DNA of 33,257 nucleotides from Ruminococcus sp. GTDB lineage: Bacteria > Bacillota > Clostridia > Oscillospirales > Ruminococcaceae. Position numbers and translations under genes: made by a program. How positions within the stretch are numbered: position 1 is the first letter of the stretch; the number at the start of each line of letters is the position of its first letter. The stretch lies in NCBI GenBank assembly GCA_017463375.1, contig JAFTPG010000014.1, forward strand, positions 1 through 33,257, read 5' to 3'. This document shows, piece by piece, positions 1,772-31,600 of the stretch. The notes beneath the pieces are model-generated. The model saw only the letters and a program-made list of their open reading frames with translations. It made no database searches and was not told the DNA's origin.

Positions 1772-2314
1772 ATGAAAGCTACAGGAATTGTTAGAAGAAT
1801 AGATGATCTGGGACGTGTTGTCATTCCTAAGGAAATCAGACGTACTATGCGTATTCGTGAGGGCGACCCTCTTGAAATCTATACAAACAGTGACGGAGAG
1901 GTAATATTCAAGAAATATTCGGCGATCAGCGAAATGAGCGAGAATGCCGTTCATGTAGCAGACATAATGTATAAAATCGCAGGCTGTCCGGTAGTGATAT
2001 TTGACAAAGACCATGTTGTGGCGTCTTCGGGAGTTTCACGCAAGGAGTTCGCAGAGCGCCGTGTCACAGGGCAGCTTGAGGAGCTTATGGAATCACGGAG
2101 TCAGTATTTCCGTACAGAGGATAACCGACAGAACTTCTACGGCGCAGAGGGAGTCGAAAAGCCGGCAATAGCAGCTGTACCGATTATTTCCGCCGGAGAT
2201 ATTACCGGAGCAGTGGTGTTTCTCGAGACAGACACTGTTAAAGAGGTGAGCGACCTCCAGAAAAGTCTGATAAATGCGTCTGCACAGTTTCTTGCAAGAC
2301 AAATTGAAGGGTGA
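1772..2314 (+). CDS. spoVT: Stage V sporulation protein T, AbrB-type regulator
   Basis: The 180 aa protein has the length and two-part layout of SpoVT. An N-terminal AbrB swapped-hairpin DNA-binding domain (residues 1-50, with GIVRRIDDLGRVVIPKEIRR) is followed by a GAF-like sensor domain (about 60-178). In Bacillus SpoVT adjusts sigma-G dependent genes in the forespore. The ATG has a good ribosome-binding site (CGGAGGAGC). It stands alone, with a repeat directly downstream. It suggests a spore-forming ancestry, but by itself does not prove that the organism sporulates. Confidence 0.9.
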   Translation: MKATGIVRRIDDLGRVVIPKEIRRTMRIREGDPLEIYTNSDGEVIFKKYSAISEMSENAVHVADIMYKIAGCPVVIFDKDHVVASSGVSRKEFAERRVTGQLEELMESRSQYFRTEDNRQNFYGAEGVEKPAIAAVPIISAGDITGAVVFLETDTVKEVSDLQKSLINASAQFLARQIEG

Positions 2315-2328
2315 GTATTTGCACGGTT

Positions 2329-2495
2329 TATTGAGGGAGACCCTTTTGAAAAAGGGTCCTCCCTCAAACTCCCTCCCTAAAACTTTTATTTAAATTTTCC
2401 AAATAGGGGCATGCCCCTATTTGGAAAATTTGAGTTGAAGTCTTTGGAAAGGGGGTTGGGGAAGAACCTTTCTTCAGAAAGGTTTTCCCCAATAA
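2329..2495. repeat. Dispersed long repeat, copy B
   Basis: This repeat is nearly identical to the outer parts of the 8051-8337 element but lacks its middle portions. It holds three hairpins: GACCCTTTTGAAAAAGGGTC, the perfect palindrome around AGGGGCATGCCCCT, and AACCTTTCTTCAGAAAGGTT. There is no ORF. The hairpins just after the spoVT stop could also terminate its transcript. Confidence 0.85.
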
Positions 2496-2537
2496 GCGGT
2501 GGAAATAACAATTTAGGTTTGATTGACAAAAAAACTG

Positions 2538-3105: not shown

Positions 3106-5301
3106 ATGAATAAAAGGAAAAGTATTGCGGGAGTTCTTGCTGCGTCTATGCTGTTCACGGCTTTGACGGGCTGTGCGGATGAGAACAGCGGCAGCAGTGC
3201 GTCCGTGAATTATAAGTGGAGCAATGTTGCTATCGGCGGCGGAGGCTATATCACGGGCATCGTGTATAATCCGACCGAGGAGGGGCTTGCCTATGTCAGA
3301 ACTGATATCGGCGGAGCTTACCGCTTTGATAAAGAACAGAACAAGTGGATTCCGATTACAGACCATCTCGGCTCTGATGCATGGAATCTCATAGGTATCG
3401 AGAGTATCGCTACAGACCCTGTAGAGCCGAACAGAGTTTATGCAGCCTGCGGAACATATATGTCGGACGCGGCAGCGCTTCTTGCTTCCGATGATTACGG
3501 CGAGACATGGTATCAGTATGATGTGGAATTCAGCTGCGGCGGCAACCAGTCCGGACGAGGCACCGGCGAGCGAATGAAGGTTGACCCTGTGAATAATCAG
3601 AATATCTATCTCGGTACAAGAACAGCAGGACTGTGGAAATCCTCGGATTACGGCAAAAGCTGGAGTCAGGTGGAATCATTCCCTGTCAAGGGCGACTATA
3701 ATCAGGAGAATAATAACATCGGTATTATGTGGATCGAGTTCGACCCTGAAACAAATGATGTCTACGCAGGCGTGGCAATGAGCAGCGGAGAGTGTATTTA
3801 TAAATCCTCGGATGAGGGCGCTACATGGGAGGCGCTTCCCGTGAATCAGAAGGGAATGTATCCTCTTCAGGCAGATATATCAGAAAACGGCAAGATGTAT
3901 ATTGCATACTCCGACACGGCAGGACCTAACGTTGACCCGAAAAACGGTGCTGTTTATTCGCTCGACCTCAGGACTCAGGAATTCACTGATATTACTCCCG
4001 ATGTCAATGACGGACGCTACGGCGGCTTCGGAGGAATTTCAGTTGACGCTCAGGAGCCTGATACGGTAGTAGTAACCTCGCTCGGCTTCTGGCACGATAA
4101 CGGTGATAACATCTACCGCACGACCGACGGCGGCGAGACATGGAATGCTCTTTATACAAAGGATGAAAAGAATTATGTTATGGATACCTCCGACGCTCAG
4201 TGGCTTGACTGGGGCAGGGAAGAGGCTAAAACAGGCTGGTGGACAGCGGCTGTTGCAATAAATCCGTTCAATTCAGACGAGGTAACATACGGTACGGGAG
4301 CTACAGTCTACTCCACGGAAAATATGACCGACCTCGGCAGCGGAACTCCGGTAACTATCAAGCCCGATGTTGACGGAATTGAGGAGACTGCCGTATTCAA
4401 TATGATTTCTCCGCCGACAGACGGAACGACTCCGCAGCTCTATTCGATTATGGGCGACCTCACAGGCTTTGCTCATATGGATGTAACAGAAGCTCCGGAC
4501 GACGCTCATTTCATGAAGAACGGCAAGCCCGATTCGCTTGACTGTGCGTGGCTCAATCCGGATATAGCTGCATATACGAGCGATTCTAACAAGGCGCTCA
4601 ACTACACGACAGACGGCGGAGCAACATGGAATACCATCAAGGCGCTCCCCGAAAAGGCTAACGGCGGAAAGGTTGCTCTTGCAGCTGACGGAAGCGCTCT
4701 TATCTGGAGATCGTCAACGCTCAGTGCAAAGCCGTACATTACTCCCGACTTCGGCAAGACATGGTATTTCTGCCAGGGGCTCGGCTACGGAGCAAAGATC
4801 ATTGCCGACAGAGTGAATCCGAAGAAATTCTACGCTGTCTGCGAGGGAACGTTCTATGTTTCCACGGACGGAGGATATAATTTTACTTCCACCGGAGCTG
4901 TTGTTACCGATGCGGCTGTTCCTGTTGCGGTCGGCGACAGGGAGGGGCATGTATGGCTTTACAGCGGCGGAATGGTAATGTACACCGAGGACGAGGGTAA
5001 AAACTTCACGGTTCTCAAGAATATCAATGCAAATGCACTCGGCTTCGGAGCTCCCGAAAAGGAGGGCGGCTATATGACCATTTATGCTATGGGAAACGAT
5101 GAGGTTGACGGCAATGACGATCCTCAGGGCGACGGAATCTACCGCTCGACTGACAAGGGTAAGACATGGCAGAAAATTAATGATGACGAGCATCTTTTTG
5201 GAAATCTTACATACGCTATTACAGGCGACAGCGAAATATTCGGACGTGTTTATTTCGCAACAAACGGCAGAGGAATTGTGATGGGGGATATTGCGGAATA
5301 A
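3106..5301 (+). CDS. Secreted GH74-like xyloglucanase lipoprotein
   Basis: The 731 aa protein starts with a lipoprotein signal peptide whose lipobox is LTGC (Cys22), so it is probably anchored outside the membrane. From residue 38 it has the GH74 opening WSNVAIGGGGYITGIV and RTDIGGAYRF, and repeated Asp-box turns (S-x-D-x-G-x-T-W) across the chain, fitting two seven-bladed propellers. Asp67 in RTDIGG matches the family's general base. Asp451 in GDLTGF is my best candidate for the general acid. The expected activity is endo-cleavage of xyloglucan. There is no dockerin, unlike the GH43 enzyme further on. The ribosome-binding site is CGGAGGAG. It is co-transcribed with its neighbours by spacing. 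Confidence 0.85.
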   Translation: MNKRKSIAGVLAASMLFTALTGCADENSGSSASVNYKWSNVAIGGGGYITGIVYNPTEEGLAYVRTDIGGAYRFDKEQNKWIPITDHLGSDAWNLIGIESIATDPVEPNRVYAACGTYMSDAAALLASDDYGETWYQYDVEFSCGGNQSGRGTGERMKVDPVNNQNIYLGTRTAGLWKSSDYGKSWSQVESFPVKGDYNQENNNIGIMWIEFDPETNDVYAGVAMSSGECIYKSSDEGATWEALPVNQKGMYPLQADISENGKMYIAYSDTAGPNVDPKNGAVYSLDLRTQEFTDITPDVNDGRYGGFGGISVDAQEPDTVVVTSLGFWHDNGDNIYRTTDGGETWNALYTKDEKNYVMDTSDAQWLDWGREEAKTGWWTAAVAINPFNSDEVTYGTGATVYSTENMTDLGSGTPVTIKPDVDGIEETAVFNMISPPTDGTTPQLYSIMGDLTGFAHMDVTEAPDDAHFMKNGKPDSLDCAWLNPDIAAYTSDSNKALNYTTDGGATWNTIKALPEKANGGKVALAADGSALIWRSSTLSAKPYITPDFGKTWYFCQGLGYGAKIIADRVNPKKFYAVCEGTFYVSTDGGYNFTSTGAVVTDAAVPVAVGDREGHVWLYSGGMVMYTEDEGKNFTVLKNINANALGFGAPEKEGGYMTIYAMGNDEVDGNDDPQGDGIYRSTDKGKTWQKINDDEHLFGNLTYAITGDSEIFGRVYFATNGRGIVMGDIAE

Positions 5302-6024
5302 ATGCAGGGAATAAAGAGAATGATCGGAGCCGTTACGGGAATTGTCATGACGGGAACAGCCTGTCTGATTTCGGCGTATTTCTCAAGGGCGGTAGTGAAC
5401 AGAGAAAGGTTTCCTGTAATGGGCGTTGACGTTTCCCATTATCAGGGAGATATAGACTGGAAAAGCCTTGAAGAGCAGGATGTTTCCTTTGCTTTTATAA
5501 AGGCGACTGAGGGAAGCGGACATGTTGATGAGTTCGCTGAGGAAAATCTGAAAAATGCTTCCGGGACTGATATGAAGATTTCGGCATATCACTTTTTCAG
5601 CTTCGACAGTCCCGGTGAAACTCAGGCGGAGAATTATATCTCCGTTGTCGATGCAGAGGATATCAATATGCCTCCTGTGGTCGATGTGGAATACTACGGA
5701 GACAAGCACAGCAATAAACCCTCGCAGCAGGAGACTGAGGACATACTGCTTCCTCTTCTTGAAATTCTGGAGGAGCATTACGGCGAAAAGCCGATAATCT
5801 ATACGACTCTTACAGTTTATAACAGATACATCAGGGAAAGCTTCTCAGACTATCCGCTGTGGATCCGCAATGTCAACTTTGAGCCTGATTTCCTCGACTG
5901 GAAGTTCTGGCAGTACAGCGACAAGGGCGAGCTTTACGGCTTTGCCGGAGAAGAAAAATATATAGATTTAAACGTTTACTGCGGCTCTGAGGAGGAGTTC
6001 CTCGCAGAGTTCAGCGGTAATTGA
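5302..6024 (+). CDS. GH25 family lysozyme, membrane-anchored or secreted
   Basis: The 240 aa protein begins with a hydrophobic N-terminal segment (residues 7-27), a signal anchor or signal peptide. A complete GH25 domain follows: GVDVSHYQG with Asp43, IKATEG with Glu70, and the active-site VVDVEYYGD with Asp128 and Glu130. GH25 enzymes cut the MurNAc-GlcNAc bond of peptidoglycan. The start codon directly follows the stop of the GH74 gene with no gap, so translation is probably coupled; the nearest ribosome-binding site, GGGGGAT, lies inside the GH74 end. Cell-wall remodelling for export of the upstream enzyme is possible but is inference. Confidence 0.88.
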   Translation: MQGIKRMIGAVTGIVMTGTACLISAYFSRAVVNRERFPVMGVDVSHYQGDIDWKSLEEQDVSFAFIKATEGSGHVDEFAEENLKNASGTDMKISAYHFFSFDSPGETQAENYISVVDAEDINMPPVVDVEYYGDKHSNKPSQQETEDILLPLLEILEEHYGEKPIIYTTLTVYNRYIRESFSDYPLWIRNVNFEPDFLDWKFWQYSDKGELYGFAGEEKYIDLNVYCGSEEEFLAEFSGN

Positions 6025-9244: not shown

Positions 9245-9364
9245 ATGAGATTTGAATTTTTAATAGGTGATGATTATGAGCACGCTCTAAGAGAATGTGC
9301 TGCATTTTGGGAACTTGCAGATAACACAATAGATTCTATTATGCTATATGCACAAATTCTGTGA
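9245..9364 (+). CDS. Possible 39-residue protein overlapping a terminator
   Basis: A reading frame from ATG at 9245 to TGA at 9362 encodes MRFEFLIGDDYEHALRECAA and 19 further residues. The composition looks protein-like (amphipathic, with Trp and Cys). However, the ribosome-binding site is weak and the last 7 codons lie in the first arm of a terminator. It may be a small protein, or the surviving end of a lost gene. Confidence 0.3.
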   Translation: MRFEFLIGDDYEHALRECAAFWELADNTIDSIMLYAQIL

Positions 9365-9393
9365 AATGGATTTGTGCATATAGCTATTTTTTT
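9343..9393 (+). terminator. Strong intrinsic terminator
   Basis: A perfect 15-base-pair stem (9343-9357 with 9370-9384) encloses a 12-base loop and is followed by TATTTTTTT. Confidence 0.9.
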
Positions 9394-9464
9394 GAAGCAG
9401 GTGCAACAAAAACGGCAAAATCTGACACTGTATTTATGAATCGATTCAAAAGGGGGAATAAAAC

Positions 9465-9971
9465 ATGAAAGACTTCGCCAAGGACATCGGACTGGCGAGA
9501 AAGGGAGATACAGCGGCATTTGCGAGACTGTACTCAGAGGTTTACAAGGATTTGTATCACATAGCTCTGTACAGCCTCAGGGATTCCCATGATGCCTGCG
9601 ACGCAGTCAGCGATACGGTAATGGACGCATTCTGTACCATTGGAAAGCTGAAAGATGAAAAAGCGTTCAGAAACTGGATAATGCGTATTCTTTCGGCAAA
9701 GATCAAGCGCAGACAGAGGGAATACTATAATGCTCCGGCAGAGATAGAGGAAGCATTTCAGGAGGGCTTTAACTTTGACTTTGTCTCATTTGAGGTCAGG
9801 GAGGCGCTGGAGAATCTTGACAGTGAATCAAGACTGCTTCTGTCGATGTCGGTGCTGGGAGGCTATACCAGCGAGGAAATTGCAAAAATATGCGAAACAA
9901 AAGCGGCTACTGTGAGGTCGAAGCTTTCGAGAATAAAAAAACGTCTCGGAGCCGAGCTGAGCAGAGAATGA
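9465..9971 (+). CDS. ECF-type sigma-70 family RNA polymerase sigma factor
   Basis: The 168 aa protein has the two domains of an ECF sigma factor. Region 2 (about residues 8-75, with the Dxx-AFxxLYxxxYKDLY pattern) binds the -10 element and the core enzyme. Region 4 (about 110-165, ending SEEIAKICETKAATVRSKLS) is a helix-turn-helix for the -35. There is no region 3. The ribosome-binding site is AAGGGGG. It is followed 23 bases later by a single-pass protein with an extracellular propeller, the usual place for its anti-sigma partner. It most likely responds to an envelope or extracellular signal. Confidence 0.9.
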   Translation: MKDFAKDIGLARKGDTAAFARLYSEVYKDLYHIALYSLRDSHDACDAVSDTVMDAFCTIGKLKDEKAFRNWIMRILSAKIKRRQREYYNAPAEIEEAFQEGFNFDFVSFEVREALENLDSESRLLLSMSVLGGYTSEEIAKICETKAATVRSKLSRIKKRLGAELSRE

Positions 9972-12408: not shown

Positions 12409-12484
12409 AGGGGTATAGCTCAGTTGGTAGAGCAGCGGTCTCCAAAACCGCGTGCCGAGGGTTCAAGTCCTTCTGCCCCTGCCA
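12409..12484 (+). tRNA. tRNA-Trp (anticodon CCA)
   Basis: The 76-base cloverleaf has acceptor arm AGGGGTA pairing with TGCCCCT. The anticodon stem GCGGT/ACCGC encloses CTCCAAA, with CCA at 12442-12444. The T-arm is GGTTCAAGTCC. Discriminator G and an encoded CCA end follow. Confidence 0.97.
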
Positions 12485-16649: not shown

Positions 16650-16922
16650 CAATAAAAAACGAAATGCCATGACGGAGAGAAGTAACAGGGAGGCTCACTC
16701 AAAGTGAGTGCGGGAGAGTGAAAACCGCACAGCAGAGTCCCTGCGAATAACACTCCCGAGCAGCAAACCGAAAATCTGCGGATCAGTAGGAGCGCCGTGA
16801 CCGTGCGTTAAACGGAAATGCTTTGATTCAAGAAGCATGAGTGACCGCTTCTGCGGTAATTTAGGTGGCACCACGGATAACTCCGTCCTATTTTTTCAAT
16901 AGGGCAGGAGTTTTTTTATTGC
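16650..16922 (+). promoter_or_regulatory. T-box leader, specifier AAC (asparagine)
   Basis: The T-box sequence AGGTGGCACCACGG is at 16863-16876. The specifier loop reads GAA-T-AAC-A-CTCCC-GAGC, the same spacing as in known T-boxes, placing the AAC Asn codon at 16749-16751. The TGGC bulge is complementary to GCCA, matching the G discriminator of tRNA-Asn. An intrinsic terminator follows (AACTCC/GGAGTT plus CCTATT/AATAGG stems and TTTTTTT at 16911-16917). Uncharged tRNA-Asn should favour the antiterminator and allow transcription of asnS. Confidence 0.95.
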
Positions 16923-16959
16923 TCCGAAGCCCTGAATTTATTCTGAAAGGAAGATTATA

Positions 16960-18330
16960 ATGAAACATACTGATATCAAAAAAGTGTTCAGTAATCCCGA
17001 ATGTGTGGGAAAAACAGTGACAGTATGCGGTTGGGTAAGAACTGCAAGAAATTCCAAGAACGTGGCTTTTATTGAGCTTAACGACGGAACCTCACTCAAG
17101 CACCTCCAGATTGTAATTGACAAGGCTTCGGATATTGATTTCGAGCCTGCACTCCACCTCGGAACATCCCTCAAGGTTGAGGGCGAGGTCGTTGAAGCTC
17201 GTCAGGGAAGCGTTGAGATCAATGCAAGCGCAATCGAGGTTCTCGGAACCTGTCCTCCGGAGTATCCGCTCCAGAAGAAGAGACATACCCTCGAGTTCCT
17301 GCGTACAATGCCTCACCTCAGAGGAAGAACCAATACTTTCAACGCTGTTCAGAGAGTTCGTTCAGTTATGGCGGCTGCAATTCACGAATACTTCCAGAGC
17401 AATAATTATGTCTATATCAATACTCCGCTTATCACAGGAAGCGACTGTGAGGGCGCAGGTGAAATGTTTCAGGTAACGACCATCGGCTACTCCAACGACT
17501 ATAAGAACGAGCAGGACTACTATGCAGACGATTTCTTCGGCAAGAAGGCAGGTCTGAGTGTTTCAGGTCAGCTCGAGGGCGAGGTTGCCGCTATGGCAAT
17601 GGGTAAGATCTATACCTTCGGTCCCAGCTTCCGTGCGGAAAATTCAAACACTCCCAAGCACCTTGCTGAGTTCTGGCACGTTGAGCCGGAGATCGCTTTC
17701 GCTGAGCTTCCCGACATCATCGAGGTTGCCGAGGATATGATAAAGACTGTTATCCGCAAGGTTCTTGATACATGTCCGGATGAAATGAAGTTCTTTGACG
17801 CTCATTTCGAAAACGGCATCATTGCCCGTCTCGAGGAGCTTATCTCACACGATTTCGGTACAGTAACCTATACCGAGGCTATCAAGCTTCTTCAGGAATC
17901 AGGTGAGAAGTTCGTATATCCCGTAGAGTGGGGATGCGACCTCCAGACTGAGCATGAGAGATATATCTCAGAAAAGGTGTTCAAGAAGGCTGTTTTCGTT
18001 ACTGACTATCCTAAGGAGATCAAGTCCTTCTACATGAAGCAGAATCCCGACGGCAAGACTGTTGCGGCTGTTGACCTCCTCGTACCCGGCGTAGGCGAGA
18101 TCATCGGCGGAAGCGAGCGTGAGGCTGACTATGATAAGCTTGTTGCTGCTATGAACGACAGAGGAATGAACCTCGATCTCTACGGCGATTATCTCGACCT
18201 CAGAAAATACGGCTCCGTACCGCACGGCGGATTTGGTCTCGGCTTTGAGCGCCTTATCATGTACGTTACAGGCGTTTCAAATATCAGAGACGTTATCCTC
18301 TACCCCAGAACTGTGGGAAGCATAAGATAA
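16960..18330 (+). CDS. asnS: Asparaginyl-tRNA synthetase
   Basis: The 456 aa class IIb synthetase charges tRNA-Asn with asparagine. It has an N-terminal OB-fold anticodon-binding domain (about 15-105, with KTVTVCGWVRTARNSKNVAF) and the class II catalytic core. Motif 2 is FRAENSNTPKHLAEFWHVEPE-like with Arg225, and motif 3 is GFGLGFERL with Arg431. Length and the missing insertion fit AsnRS rather than AspRS, and the Asn T-box upstream confirms it. The ribosome-binding site is AAAGGAAG. Confidence 0.96.
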   Translation: MKHTDIKKVFSNPECVGKTVTVCGWVRTARNSKNVAFIELNDGTSLKHLQIVIDKASDIDFEPALHLGTSLKVEGEVVEARQGSVEINASAIEVLGTCPPEYPLQKKRHTLEFLRTMPHLRGRTNTFNAVQRVRSVMAAAIHEYFQSNNYVYINTPLITGSDCEGAGEMFQVTTIGYSNDYKNEQDYYADDFFGKKAGLSVSGQLEGEVAAMAMGKIYTFGPSFRAENSNTPKHLAEFWHVEPEIAFAELPDIIEVAEDMIKTVIRKVLDTCPDEMKFFDAHFENGIIARLEELISHDFGTVTYTEAIKLLQESGEKFVYPVEWGCDLQTEHERYISEKVFKKAVFVTDYPKEIKSFYMKQNPDGKTVAAVDLLVPGVGEIIGGSEREADYDKLVAAMNDRGMNLDLYGDYLDLRKYGSVPHGGFGLGFERLIMYVTGVSNIRDVILYPRTVGSIR

Positions 18331-22008: not shown

Positions 22009-22085
<77 letters not shown>

Positions 22086-27474: not shown

Positions 27475-28278
27475 TTATTCTAAGGATGTGTCACGTTTCT
27501 TCTTGGGTGCAGAATGTTCAGGAGATTTGCTGCGTTTCTCAGCCAGTTCCTTTGAAGATTTTTTTAGAGTTTCTCTGGATATGTAGCCAGTCATTCTTTT
27601 GACTGTTGATTGTTGAGATTGGTTTGGCACCGCTGCACATTGACGCAATACACCTAAGATATCAGCGGATAACATTGATTTGATTTCAGGAGACAATTCA
27701 GTTATAGTGTATCCCTTTTCACAATAAACCTCTTGATTATATTTTTTCTCATCGTTCTTCTTGGAAAAAATATGTGTTATTGTAAACGCATCACTGCTTT
27801 TAGAAAAACAGTCCTCATCACGTAAGGATTTTGCGATGAAACAAGTACCCTGTTCTGTTCCATTGTTATCATATTCTTTATTAAAACAAAGTGAGAATTT
27901 TAAATCGGTAGTGCCGAATTTATACGTTTCTGTTTGTGTTTTTATGTCCTTCAACATAAAACTTTCTCCCATCACGAGGGAAGAGATGGCGTGTAAATGC
28001 TTGAGCTTTTTCTGTGCAAGTTTATATGGATGTCGTGCTGAAAAGAATACCTGTGAAGATTGTAATTCTTTTTTTACTGCTTTCTTATAAAACTCTTGTG
28101 CTGATAATTTAGAATCAACTCCTGTCAGGTGCTTGAAATCTTTTGTTTTAAACATAACTTCTATATATTGCCCTTCAAAAACATATAGGAATGTTTTGCC
28201 GACAAGATTCTTTTTATATGCGTCTGCTGCTTTTTTTATCTCAGATACGATTTTTTGCTTATCAATTTGTGTATTCAT
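27475..28278 (-). CDS. PBECR4-like protein (predicted barnase/EndoU/colicin/RelE-type nuclease fold)
   Basis: The 267 aa protein shows the PBECR4 pattern. GKTFLYVFEGQYIEVMF and FKHLTGVDSKLSAQEFYKKA (about residues 30-70) are followed by the HPYKLAQKKLKHL helix, a long beta-rich middle and a Lys-rich tail. The family is predicted to be RNase-like but its activity is not established. ATG 28278 (GGAAG site) is preferred over an in-frame start at 28332, which lies before the terminator stem. The gene has its own promoter (28543-28571), and a structured leader of about 250 bases with a terminator separates the two. A toxin paired with an RNA antitoxin is one reading; see findings. Confidence 0.65.
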   Translation of the reverse strand: MNTQIDKQKIVSEIKKAADAYKKNLVGKTFLYVFEGQYIEVMFKTKDFKHLTGVDSKLSAQEFYKKAVKKELQSSQVFFSARHPYKLAQKKLKHLHAISSLVMGESFMLKDIKTQTETYKFGTTDLKFSLCFNKEYDNNGTEQGTCFIAKSLRDEDCFSKSSDAFTITHIFSKKNDEKKYNQEVYCEKGYTITELSPEIKSMLSADILGVLRQCAAVPNQSQQSTVKRMTGYISRETLKKSSKELAEKRSKSPEHSAPKKKRDTSLE

Positions 28279-28290
28279 AAAGTCACTTCC

Positions 28291-28325
28291 CAAGAAAAAG
28301 CGTCGGGTAAAGTTTGCCCGACGCT
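28291..28325 (-). terminator. Intrinsic terminator/attenuator before the PBECR4-like gene
   Basis: On the minus strand AGCGTCGGG (28317-28325) pairs with CCCGACGCT (28299-28307), followed by TTTTTCTT. It ends 13 bases before the start codon, so transcripts must read through it to express the gene. Confidence 0.88.
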
Positions 28326-28335
28326 TCAACATTCA

Positions 28336-28536
28336 ATATAAGCGGTTTTATGCTGGCTGTCAGCCGCAATACCCTTTCGAGTATCTAAAATGTCGCCGAA
28401 AATAAGTCCTCGGCGCAGACTAACCATATCTCCCAGGTCGGGGCACAATGCTCTTTCAAGCATCTAAGGTCTTGGTGTTTTTACCTGCCCAAGTACAGTA
28501 CAGCTTAATGTGCCGCTACACAGAGGATTTTTCCTC
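28336..28536 (-). ncRNA. Tandem structured leader RNA (two related domains)
   Basis: Two domains 79 bases apart share one plan. First comes a hairpin (28471-28493, CTTGG/CCAAG; 28394-28415, CGCCGA/TCGGCG). Then comes TTAGAT joined to a GAAA-capped hairpin (28448-28463, ATGCTTGAAAGAGCAT; 28369-28384, ATACTCGAAAGGGTAT). A small stem follows (CCC/GGG at 28432-28443; GGC/GCC at 28355-28365). The G-C to A-T change in the GAAA hairpin keeps pairing, which points to selection on RNA structure. It does not match a riboswitch class that I recognise. Confidence 0.75.
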
Positions 28537-28542
28537 ATTTAT

Positions 28543-28571
28543 ATTATATCCGATTTCACCTAATTTGTCAA
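28543..28571 (-). promoter_or_regulatory. Consensus promoter of the tandem RNA and PBECR4-like gene
   Basis: On the minus strand TTGACA (28566-28571), a 17-base spacer and TATAAT (28543-28548) form a full consensus. The start of transcription should be near 28536. Confidence 0.92.
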
Positions 28572-28651
28572 TAGTTTTCAAAAAAATTTTTCAATCACAA
28601 CTTTCTCCCCATCGAGGCAGAAATTAAAGATTACACATAGCTTCCTCCGGA

Positions 28652-31600
28652 TTATTCCAATGTCTGTTTCTTTTTCTTTTCTGGCTGTTTCTTTGTAGCA
28701 GCTCGGCTCTTAGCCGCTTCCTTTTTCAGCTTTGCCCTGTCAAAATAACAGGTACGCTGCTGAGGTTTATTTTTCTTAGCTTCGGCAGCTGCTTCGTTCA
28801 GCTCCGTTGTGAGCGTTGCCAGACGTTCCTCCTTTTGTGCAAGCTCTGAATCTCTTGGAAATGTCTGTACAGCAAGCTTTTCCGCTTCTGCATAGTCAAT
28901 ACGCAGCGCACTGAGTTTGCTGTGAGCGTTTCTTACCTTGTCATCAACAGAATACAAGGCACTTTCCAGACGTTTCAGATTATGCGGAAACGAGCCTATC
29001 AGCTCTGCTCTGTGCGTTACACTTCCGCTGAGCGTAGCCGTCACATTCTTGCTGAAGCTGTCCATCTGCACAGAAAGAGGAAATCCTTGAAATTCACCGA
29101 TTTTTACAGGCGTATCCATTACTTTTATCGCATCATAAGTCGCATCCTCAAAAGCCTGTGCAGCTTCTTTTCGGTCTGTGTAAACGGTATCACCAATCGT
29201 GAGCCGGAACTTCGGCTGCATTGTTTCAGGGTCTACAGGCAGCTTGTCTATATGCTTACGGTCTGTTTCCAGTCCATTCAGCAATCCTATGAGACGTTCC
29301 TCATTTGCCGGAAACGCTTTGACTTTATCCTGCATTTCATATACGGTATTTGTATGCTCCGCTTTCATCAGGCGCAGCTCCTTAACCTCATTGTCAAGCT
29401 GCATCTTTTCCTTGATACGCTCATCTCCGGTGCAGAGTGCCTTGATTTCAGAATATGTAAGTGCCTGCTGGTCAACATCCTCACACTTGCGTACAGGCGT
29501 TTTTGATGTCATTATCTGAGAGATAAACTTCTGCTTATTCTCCAAGGTCTGGTAAGAATACGCATCGAATGTTCCCTTTGTAACATAGCGGAAAATATGC
29601 ACGTTCTTATTCTCATTACCTTGTCTGATGATACGTCCGGCTCTCTGTTCAAGGTCAGCTGGTCTCCACGGAATATCAAGGTCATGTACAGCAATCAGAC
29701 GTTTCTGCACATTTGTACCAGTTCCCATTTTGCTTGTCGAGCCGAGCAGCACACGCACTTCGCCGGAGCGAACCTTATCGAATAGCTCAGATTTCTGCTT
29801 CTCAGTTTTTGCATTATGAATATATGCTATTTCATTTTCCGGAACGCCTTTATCCATAAGTTTCTGCTTAATATCATCATATACGCAGAAATCGCATTCT
29901 TCTTCCAGAGAATTTGCTTCCGCAGCGGATACTTCCTCTGCATCAGCACCGTCCTTTGCTGCACTTGCTGTCTTATGAGGTACACCAAGATCACAGAAAA
30001 CTATCTGAGTAAGCTTTTCTTCGGAAGTATGGTTAAACAGATTCTGGGAACCGTTTACATACATTTCAAGGCTGTTAGCTACTCTGAGAGCAATTTCGCC
30101 CTGCTGCATAAGTTCCGCATGAAGGTCAGAGAGTATCGGCATCTTTTCCTTTGATGGATTGTTTTTCAGGAATCTCATATAGATGTTTCTGACGCATTTA
30201 TCAATAATGGAACGTTCTTCGGCTGTCAGACCGTATTTACCGCCTACGATGATTTCGCAGAGGGAAATGATGAAGTCTGATTTCATGGAGACAGGGTTTT
30301 CATCCATATCAGCACCGAAATTGATGTCCATAGGATTGATGTACTGCTCAGAATTTGATGAGATTTTGATAAGCTGTCCGTTAAGTTCCTGTACAAGAGG
30401 GAAATATTCGCCTTCAGGGTCACAGATGATAATATCATCCGTTGTCTTTAAAAAGCTGTCCAGAATCTCACGCTTACCACTGAACGATTTACCAGAACCG
30501 GGAGTTCCCAGAATCAAGCCGTTAGGATTCTTCAGGTTTGAACGGTCAGCCATAATCATATTACCTGAAATCTTATTGACACCGTAATATGTACCATCCG
30601 GCTGAAACAGTTCTCTTGTTGTAAAAGGAACGAAAACAGCAATACCGGATGTATGCATTTCACGGCTGACAGGAATTTCATTAAGACCGAGGGGAAGTGT
30701 GGTAGCAAGAGCCTGTTCCTGAATATATCCGCATTGCATCATCATGCAGTTATTCTTCTGACAGATACGTTTCAGCAAATCAAGCTGTAATTTCAGGTCT
30801 TTCTTCGACTTTGCGTAGTTTCGCAGCGAGAGCGAAATGTGGAAAAGACGTTCATTCTTTGAGTTCAGATCATCCAGCAGCTTCTCAAGATCATCAATAT
30901 ACATCTTGATCGACGGAGGAAGGATATTAGGGTCATATCCGGCTGTAGACGCTTTTTTCTGTTCGTCGATCTTCATTTGCTCTACGTTCGTCAGCTTGCG
31001 CTTAATGAATTTTAAAGCTGCAATCTGATCGAACGGTTCAATGTGCATATTTACACAAAACAGATTCTGCGCCTTCATAAAGTCGGTCAGAACCGTATCC
31101 GGCAGTTCTCCGGCAAGAATATTGATGGTTGAGACTGCGCCGAATGCATCACCAATTTCAAAGTCGGATTTATTGAATTTCAGAGAAGCAGGAGCGATGA
31201 AATCCTTTGTATCCATTCCGGAACGAATCATTTTATTCCAGTCGAAAATAAATGGCGCATTTCTGTACGGATTCAACGAATAGTACAACGTTTCCAGACG
31301 TTCCTTTCCGCTTAGAACCTGAGCTTCAACGCCAATGGCTTTCATCATTTTTACAAGCTCCGTAGACAGTCCTATGAGCTTTGCTCTGGCTGATTTATAT
31401 GAGTCGGCGTCAACCGTAAATGTAAGGAACTTACGACATGATTGTCCATTTGTACCGTTTGTCAGTTTTGAAGTGAGCATTTCTGAATACTCACGTCTGA
31501 TATCATTGAAAGCATCTTCCTGATTCTGAATCTGAATGCTTCTTACGAGTGCTTCCTGACTTCTGTTCTGGTTTTCAAATGTAAGCTGAAATTTTACAGT

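Follow-up and report, generated by a model that had tools for sequence, protein, structure and literature searches.

A predicted PBECR4 nuclease gene behind a pseudoknotted tandem RNA: a probable type III-like toxin–antitoxin module in Ruminococcus

We analysed a 33,257-nucleotide stretch of DNA from Ruminococcus sp. (contig JAFTPG010000014.1 of assembly GCA_017463375.1; this whole stretch is called the window), in which a gene for a PBECR4 protein follows a structured RNA leader. We consider it likely that the two make up a self-contained, type III-like toxin–antitoxin module, which would combine a BECR-type nuclease with a new class of RNA antitoxin. The anatomy of the module, the structure of the RNA, its recurrence, its co-inheritance with the protein and one-sided loss can all be read in the sequence. 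The order on the minus strand is promoter, structured RNA leader, intrinsic terminator and PBECR4 gene, i.e. the single promoter, antitoxin-type RNA, Rho-independent terminator and gene of type III systems:

28543..28571, minus strand: promoter TTGACA-17-TATAAT, perfect consensus (12/12)
28337..28553, minus strand: class V-a structured RNA (covariance-model match; the span takes in the -10 box)
28294..28327, minus strand: intrinsic terminator between the RNA and the PBECR4 gene, hairpin and T-run
27475..28278 (stop codon included), minus strand: PBECR4 protein gene, 267 amino acids, predicted BECR-type RNase (Pfam PF18813)

A preliminary description of this DNA had claimed a perfect promoter, two structured domains 79 bases apart with compensatory changes, an intrinsic terminator and a PBECR4-like gene, and all four were found: the promoter matches the consensus at 12 of 12 positions (28571-28543), the hairpin motifs of the two domains (28467-28446 and 28388-28367) differ by compensated changes, a hairpin with a T-run lies at 28327-28294, and the protein belongs to PF18813. 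One scan did not list the terminator, probably because its 9-base loop exceeds that scan's loop limit of 8. The RNA had been put at ∼200 bases; from a transcription start that we place near 28536, its length would instead be about 245 nucleotides. An alternative in-frame ATG is present at 28332, and the start taken here is 28278. The leader folded better than its shuffled versions (z=-3.1, 0 of 200 shuffles as good). The covariance model, among whose 37 member sequences is that of the window, matched it with 210 bits. The preliminary description did not recognise the RNA class. In Rfam the leader matched no family at the gathering threshold, and the region 28230-28660 gave only chance-level matches at E up to 10.

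The window protein (P0001) matched PF18813 with 89.2 bits (curated cut-off 27, E=5.7e-25), its sole Pfam match at E 0.01. There was no NCBIfam match at E 1 and PADLOC gave only Cas5_IIIh at E 0.054, the type III toxin models of these libraries not having been checked. His50 and Gly53 are conserved in all seven leader-label groups of PBECR4 proteins defined below, and the position of Ser151 holds Ser or Thr in the 18 alignment rows inspected. As far as the accessible text of PMC5512222 goes, most PBECR families have a His plus Ser/Thr active site and are predicted RNases; the residues of PBECR4 fit such a site. The name 'PBECR4' was not found in the open literature searched.

Fold of the RNA

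The RNA class of the window, termed V, has two subclasses, V-a (GCTG/CAGC, that of the window) and V-b (GTTG/CAAC). We wrote eleven helices by inspection of the alignments and then counted the pairs:

28342..28522, minus strand: RNA core, containing H1, H2 and H3
28522-28519/28512-28509, minus strand: H1 (comparative structure, RNA core)
28516-28513/28345-28342, minus strand: H2, pseudoknot (comparative structure, RNA core)
28504-28501/28359-28356, minus strand: H3, ring closure (comparative structure, RNA core)
28447..28498, minus strand: domain 1, in which H4 (28498-28496/28487-28485) crosses H5 (28493-28489/28475-28471), with hairpin H6 (28464-28459/28452-28447)
28422..28443, minus strand: link between the tail of domain 1 and the head of domain 2, in which H7 (28443-28441/28434-28432) crosses H8 (28439-28436/28425-28422)
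28368..28421, minus strand: domain 2, in which H9 (28421-28417/28409-28405) crosses H10 (28415-28410/28399-28394), with hairpin H11 (28385-28380/28373-28368)

All 50 pairs of this comparative structure are intact in the window. In V-a (37 of 38 non-redundant sequences; the shorter L076 was left out) 97.2% of the cells were paired, compared to 33.5–45.3% in controls with slid partners; two-sided changes occurred in 35 of the 50 pairs, with 204 such cells versus 48.7 in shuffles. In V-b (31 of 33 sequences; L068 and L118 align poorly and were left out) 98.0% of the cells were paired versus 33.0–48.4% in the slid controls, and 19 of 49 pairs had two-sided changes. As the structure was taken from the very alignments that were counted, it has an advantage over its slid versions. 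The preliminary description had made its reading depend on covariation among homologues, and covariation is strong in both subclasses. Helices cross in four places (H1/H2, H4/H5, H7/H8 and H9/H10), and in V-a each of these eight helices has two-sided changes; the pseudoknot fold, which characterises type III antitoxins, is thus seen in the alignments of both V-a and V-b.

RNAalifold, which considers nested pairs only, agrees on H1, H5, H6, H8, H10 and H11. It differs in three respects: the 3′ partner of H3 lies four bases off, the 5′ strand of H4 pairs with bases that we assign to H3, and there is an additional three-pair helix (123-125/224-226). H3 is constant inside each subclass, reading GCTG/CAGC in every V-a row counted and GTTG/CAAC in every V-b row. 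We favour our register of H3 because of this change between V-a and V-b, as the RNAalifold alternative needs a G-U pair in V-b and loses the other helix.

Beyond the hairpin motifs, the sequence likeness of the two domains is weak (global score 36.0 versus a mean of 25.6 in 1000 shuffles, 48 of which scored as high), and the claim of a tandem therefore rests on structure. The two domains are closed into a ring by two helices, each linking the tail of one domain with the head of the other: in H8 the tail is that of domain 1, in H3 that of domain 2. Class II leaders, which precede another PBECR4 clade, followed the same rule in a scripted test of eight loci. Each loop paired with the head of the other unit, over 4–5 bases in seven of them and over 3 and 4 bases in L183. 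With its own head, a loop reached just 2–3 bases in L012, L017, L019 and L037, the four most informative loci; in L022, L023, L024 and L183 the test does not discriminate. Fewer than two hairpins were detected by the script in L003, L004 and L005, which were therefore left unscored; on visual inspection L005 fits.

Recurrence and co-inheritance of leader and protein

Another genome of the family (locus L002) carries a PBECR4 protein 63% identical to that of the window behind the same leader with compensated changes; by eye, its surroundings are unrelated to those of the window. A 19-base pattern from the 3′ part of the RNA occurred in at least 116 stretches of genome contigs; judged with a profile built from toxin-bearing members, 108 of the 116 listed loci are real and 8 are chance. 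Recurrence upstream of PBECR4 genes had been proposed as support for the preliminary description: a whole or partial PBECR4 frame lies close downstream on the same strand in 66 of these 116 loci, and on the opposite strand in none. An 18-base form of the pattern gave three stretches in viral contigs, two of them with PBECR4 behind the RNA. The third (L007) holds an orphan V-a RNA (9333-9535, plus strand) in a 67-kb record without PBECR4; this orphan adjoins integrase genes and a gene for an IrrE-Fic protein. Carriers in culture include Roseburia porci (L088) and Selenomonas sp. ND2010 (L110). A covariance-model scan of 391 genomes of the class found three places, the window, G554 (L018, with PBECR4) and G518. 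The leader DNA matched only its own genome among 99 genomes (its own and relatives), a 5′ pattern of the RNA gave no match in viral contigs, the window DNA gave none in plasmids, and the leaders of L002–L005 matched no Rfam family. Going by these searches, the RNA of the window is a new, widespread class.

Loci were also collected through the protein. PF18813 occurred in 29 of the 391 genomes (31 places) and in 4 of 398 genomes of the phylum, and P0001 found matches in 5 of 247 genomes of the family, including that of the window; one broken place among the 31 was left out of the resulting 36 protein-first loci. A strict script found a terminator before 27 of the 36 PBECR4 frames, compared to 4 among 34 other frames at these loci. 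Of the nine misses, seven have a long-loop hairpin by eye, L020 is 5′-truncated and L033 is frameshifted. Homologues lacking any such leader would have spoken against the preliminary description, and L020 and L033 are the only loci of the 36 without a terminator-like hairpin. Back-translated peptides of P0001 found no relatives in genome and viral contigs, and no phage record held the P0001 protein, the L011 protein or the L183 DNA.

Other PBECR4 clades carry other leaders, of which one is the Rfam drum RNA (RF02958). The protein-first loci supplied classes I (drum), II, III and IV, of which III and IV were grouped by eye. Drum lies directly upstream of PBECR4 in 8 of 20 protein-first loci scanned with Rfam (20 of the 30 loci from the 391 genomes). 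In the same 391 genomes drum occurred in 23 places, 12 of them directly upstream of PBECR4 on the same strand by coordinate comparison; by eye, two of the remaining places precede PBECR4 remnants (L050, L051), eight are without PBECR4 and one (L062) is cut by the contig end. In the plasmid PBECR4 loci that were read (4 of 21 matching records; three from Enterococcus and one from Streptococcus suis, two of the four nearly identical) drum is directly upstream in all four. The covariance model R1 recognised the window, L002 and L018. It gave no match in any of the eleven loci with other kinds of leader on which it was run, so that by R1 the classes show no detectable relationship.

Mapped onto a tree of 94 PBECR4 proteins, leader labels changed 6 times for 7 labels, which is the minimum (shuffled mean 51.7, 0 of 200 shuffles as low); the tree is a quick maximum-likelihood tree with many weak inner branches and several long end branches, its labels were assigned by the analyst, with 'other' (four rows) meaning only unclassified, and most class V rows were collected through the RNA. 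On this tree leader class keeps to the protein lineages as closely as the labels allow, and leader and protein appear as co-inherited.

Several further leaders were seen. Those before PBECR4 at L003–L005, L012, L029–L031, L035, L034 and L036 comprise classes II, III and IV and two unclassified ones; Rfam matched none of the leaders scanned (all of these loci except L034 and L036). The Butyrivibrio proteoclasticus plasmid pCY360 (L190) has a PBECR4 leader of a further, unclassified kind (2250-2506, plus strand), with promoter, RNA and terminator by eye and an RNA that the covariance model did not match. On an Enterococcus faecalis plasmid (L063) an AbiH-family gene (4805-5992, plus strand) lies 3′ of drum and PBECR4. 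By eye, drum RNAs without PBECR4 are present in G576 (four, L058–L061), which also has a drum-PBECR4 module, and in G358 (one, L056). One of the orphan drum RNAs shares a 3.1-kb stretch with a phage minor-head (MuF-like) gene. For the gene that precedes the orphans in G576 a phage endolysin was considered, which family searches did not bear out. It is possible that orphan drum RNAs are phage decoy antitoxins.

One-sided loss and alternative explanations

Can the RNA and the toxin be lost independently? We counted class V loci not cut by a contig end, among the matches listed. Behind 87 full RNAs there were 47 intact toxins, 14 broken ones and 26 absent or remnant, while behind ten damaged RNAs (middle or 5′ part lost) there were no intact toxins, 6 broken ones and 4 absent (six full and two damaged RNAs with a contig-cut toxin side and three intact toxins with a contig-cut RNA were set aside). 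Fisher's test gave 0.0012 for full versus damaged RNA against toxin state, and 0.012 for the seven middle deletions alone; these rows are related, L139 and L164 being near copies, and were found by the RNA 3′ end, and the relatedness weakens the counts as support. In eight RNAs (L120, L138, L104, L127, L139, L164, L080 and L134, the last contig-cut) the middle is missing as if deleted between the domains, and none of the eight has an intact toxin; the counts suggest that both domains may be required. With a looser criterion the listed class V loci comprised 55 intact toxins, 15 remnants, 32 without trace and 6 too short to judge; the 32 have at least 600 bases downstream and no trace of a PBECR4 gene. 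The 38 aligned full RNAs without an intact toxin kept 95.6% of their pairs, compared to 96.9% in 50 RNAs with one. Relative to the nearest toxin-bearing relative, pair-breaking changes were 41/229 in RNAs without an intact toxin and 32/238 in toxin-bearing ones. As the pairs are mostly kept, most toxin-less RNAs look maintained or recently orphaned. Four closely similar orphan V-b RNAs (L189, L154, L081 and L116) lie directly behind an unnamed 304-residue frame.

We propose the following model. The strong promoter would yield an RNA of about 245 nucleotides that mostly ends at the intrinsic terminator, and occasional read-through would give the mRNA of the PBECR4 nuclease, so that the RNA would be in excess over toxin mRNA. 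Folded as two tandem pseudoknotted domains closed into a ring, the RNA would bind the nuclease and block it. If RNA synthesis dropped, through loss of the element or takeover by a phage, the RNA would disappear first and the nuclease would cut cellular RNA. Binding, silencing and RNA cutting are proposed by analogy with type III systems and, above all, with AbiF of Clostridioides difficile, and the target and trigger of the nuclease are likewise presumed in this model.

Several observations weigh against a toxin–antitoxin module. Pairing is slightly poorer in RNAs that lack an intact toxin (p 0.02), and the orphan RNAs may in part be recent deletions. One of the three places found by the covariance model, that in G518, is an orphan. 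Promoters matching at least 11 of 12 positions were found at just 15 of the 36 protein-first loci, versus 6 of 34 controls. The PBECR4 family profile matched no PDB chain at E up to 10, and P0001 alone found one chain at chance level (E 0.13). Furthermore, the units of the window RNA are ∼79 nucleotides long and differ in sequence, compared to the repeats of 34–50 nucleotides in the type III antitoxins described so far (available text of PMC5086642 and PMC12373285).

Could the RNA instead be a cofactor or sensor of a PBECR4 ribonucleoprotein that serves in defence or counter-defence, the nuclease working with the bound RNA as its guide, scaffold or phage-sensing bait? At ∼200 nucleotides, elaborate and conserved, the RNA is more than simple inhibition would seem to need, and the modules sit on the apparent conjugative element of the window (see below), in viral contigs and on plasmids. 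Yet a cofactor RNA would not be expected to outlast its protein, and the toxin-less RNAs keep most of their pairs; the terminator, too, favours an excess of RNA, as expected of an antitoxin. We regard this explanation as unlikely.

The preliminary description had offered two readings, a type III-like unit and a tandem riboswitch. The first is upheld by the anatomy, the pseudoknotted tandem RNA, the pairing of leaders with protein clades, the one-sided loss and the toxin-less copies. In the second, a ligand-sensing RNA (or an attenuator) would set read-through of the terminator into the PBECR4 gene, and a terminator does lie between RNA and gene in 46 of the 47 listed class V loci with a full RNA and an intact toxin. 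However, leader–terminator complementarity in cis was -10.60 kcal/mol versus -10.66 kcal/mol with other leaders (46 loci), a comparison that tests one simple form of coupling; RNAs occur without any trace of the gene, also in a viral record; and one protein family is served by several leader classes. Since toxin-less copies keep their structure, one of them in a viral record, we favour an RNA acting in trans over a riboswitch, which appears very improbable. Equally hard to sustain is autogenous control alone, in which PBECR4 would cut or bind its own leader to set its level without being a toxin: co-inheritance of leader and protein agrees with it, yet the toxin is broken or absent behind 40 of the 87 full RNAs and never intact behind the ten damaged ones, and the RNA keeps its structure without the gene.

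Beyond the module itself, we lean towards a broader view in which PBECR4 would be the toxin of a large, unrecognised RNA-antitoxin superfamily in Bacillota, with at least five leader classes including drum, antitoxins that share a new architecture as ring-closed tandem pseudoknots, and toxin-less decoys carried by phages. RNA-antitoxin control would then extend to another toxin family, and a likely function would be at hand for a named RNA family (drum, listed in Rfam as a small RNA) and for a widespread predicted nuclease. Moreover, an arms race becomes open to testing through the RNAs that lack a toxin, of which one is in a viral record.

Genomic setting and comparison with known systems

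Upstream of the module, on the same strand, lies a large ATPase gene, in which DUF87/HerA and Helicase_C score above their cut-offs and TraC_F_IV below its own. Genes for a PrgI and a DUF6017 protein are also upstream on this strand, and a relaxase gene lies elsewhere in the window. These genes suggest that the window is part of a conjugative element. Other features of the window are:

12409-12484, plus strand: tRNA-Trp gene
16660-18330, plus strand: class II aminoacyl-tRNA synthetase gene, preceded by a T-box leader (104.4 bits)
22009-22085, plus strand: tRNA-Met gene ahead of the relaxase region, which, as a guess, could be an insertion site

The PBECR proteins of phages and conjugative elements share a superfamily with the window protein. 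In the accessible part of PMC5512222 their solo forms are placed in phages as well as in elements that have type IV secretion-like systems, and they are proposed to act as RNases on host or phage RNA after entry; that part mentions no RNA partner. The drum RNA resembles the window RNA in lying directly upstream of PBECR4 and is a different class: RF02958 had no covariance match in the window at the gathering threshold and none in 28230-28660 at E up to 10.

The module is type III-like in its proposed working, yet it departs from these systems in its toxin family, and its repeats are repeats in structure only. A similar arrangement is that of AbiF-Cd/RCd22 of Clostridioides difficile, in which, according to the available text of PMC12373285, a SigA promoter precedes a noncoding RNA where a conserved motif known from Rfam occurs twice, a terminator and the toxin gene, and RCd22 binds the toxin encoded downstream and so neutralises it, both in cis and in trans. 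Its toxin is an Abi_2/AbiD/F protein and its RNA is RF03085, which the window leader does not match. As far as the accessible portions of PMC4627078 and PMC5086642 describe them, CptIN, ToxIN and TenpIN share with the window a promoter, a pseudoknotted tandem RNA, a Rho-independent terminator and a gene for an RNase-type toxin, and share with the PBECR4 modules that the antitoxin type tracks the toxin group. The window toxin is PBECR4, unlike ToxN, CptN and TenpN. In those systems near-identical repeats are cut apart, and the CptIN complex is a self-closing ring of two RNAs and two proteins, whereas the window RNA has two units, with several pseudoknots, that pair with each other within one molecule. 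The ring-closed tandem pseudoknot suggests that one RNA could hold two toxin molecules uncut, where CptIN uses two separate RNAs.
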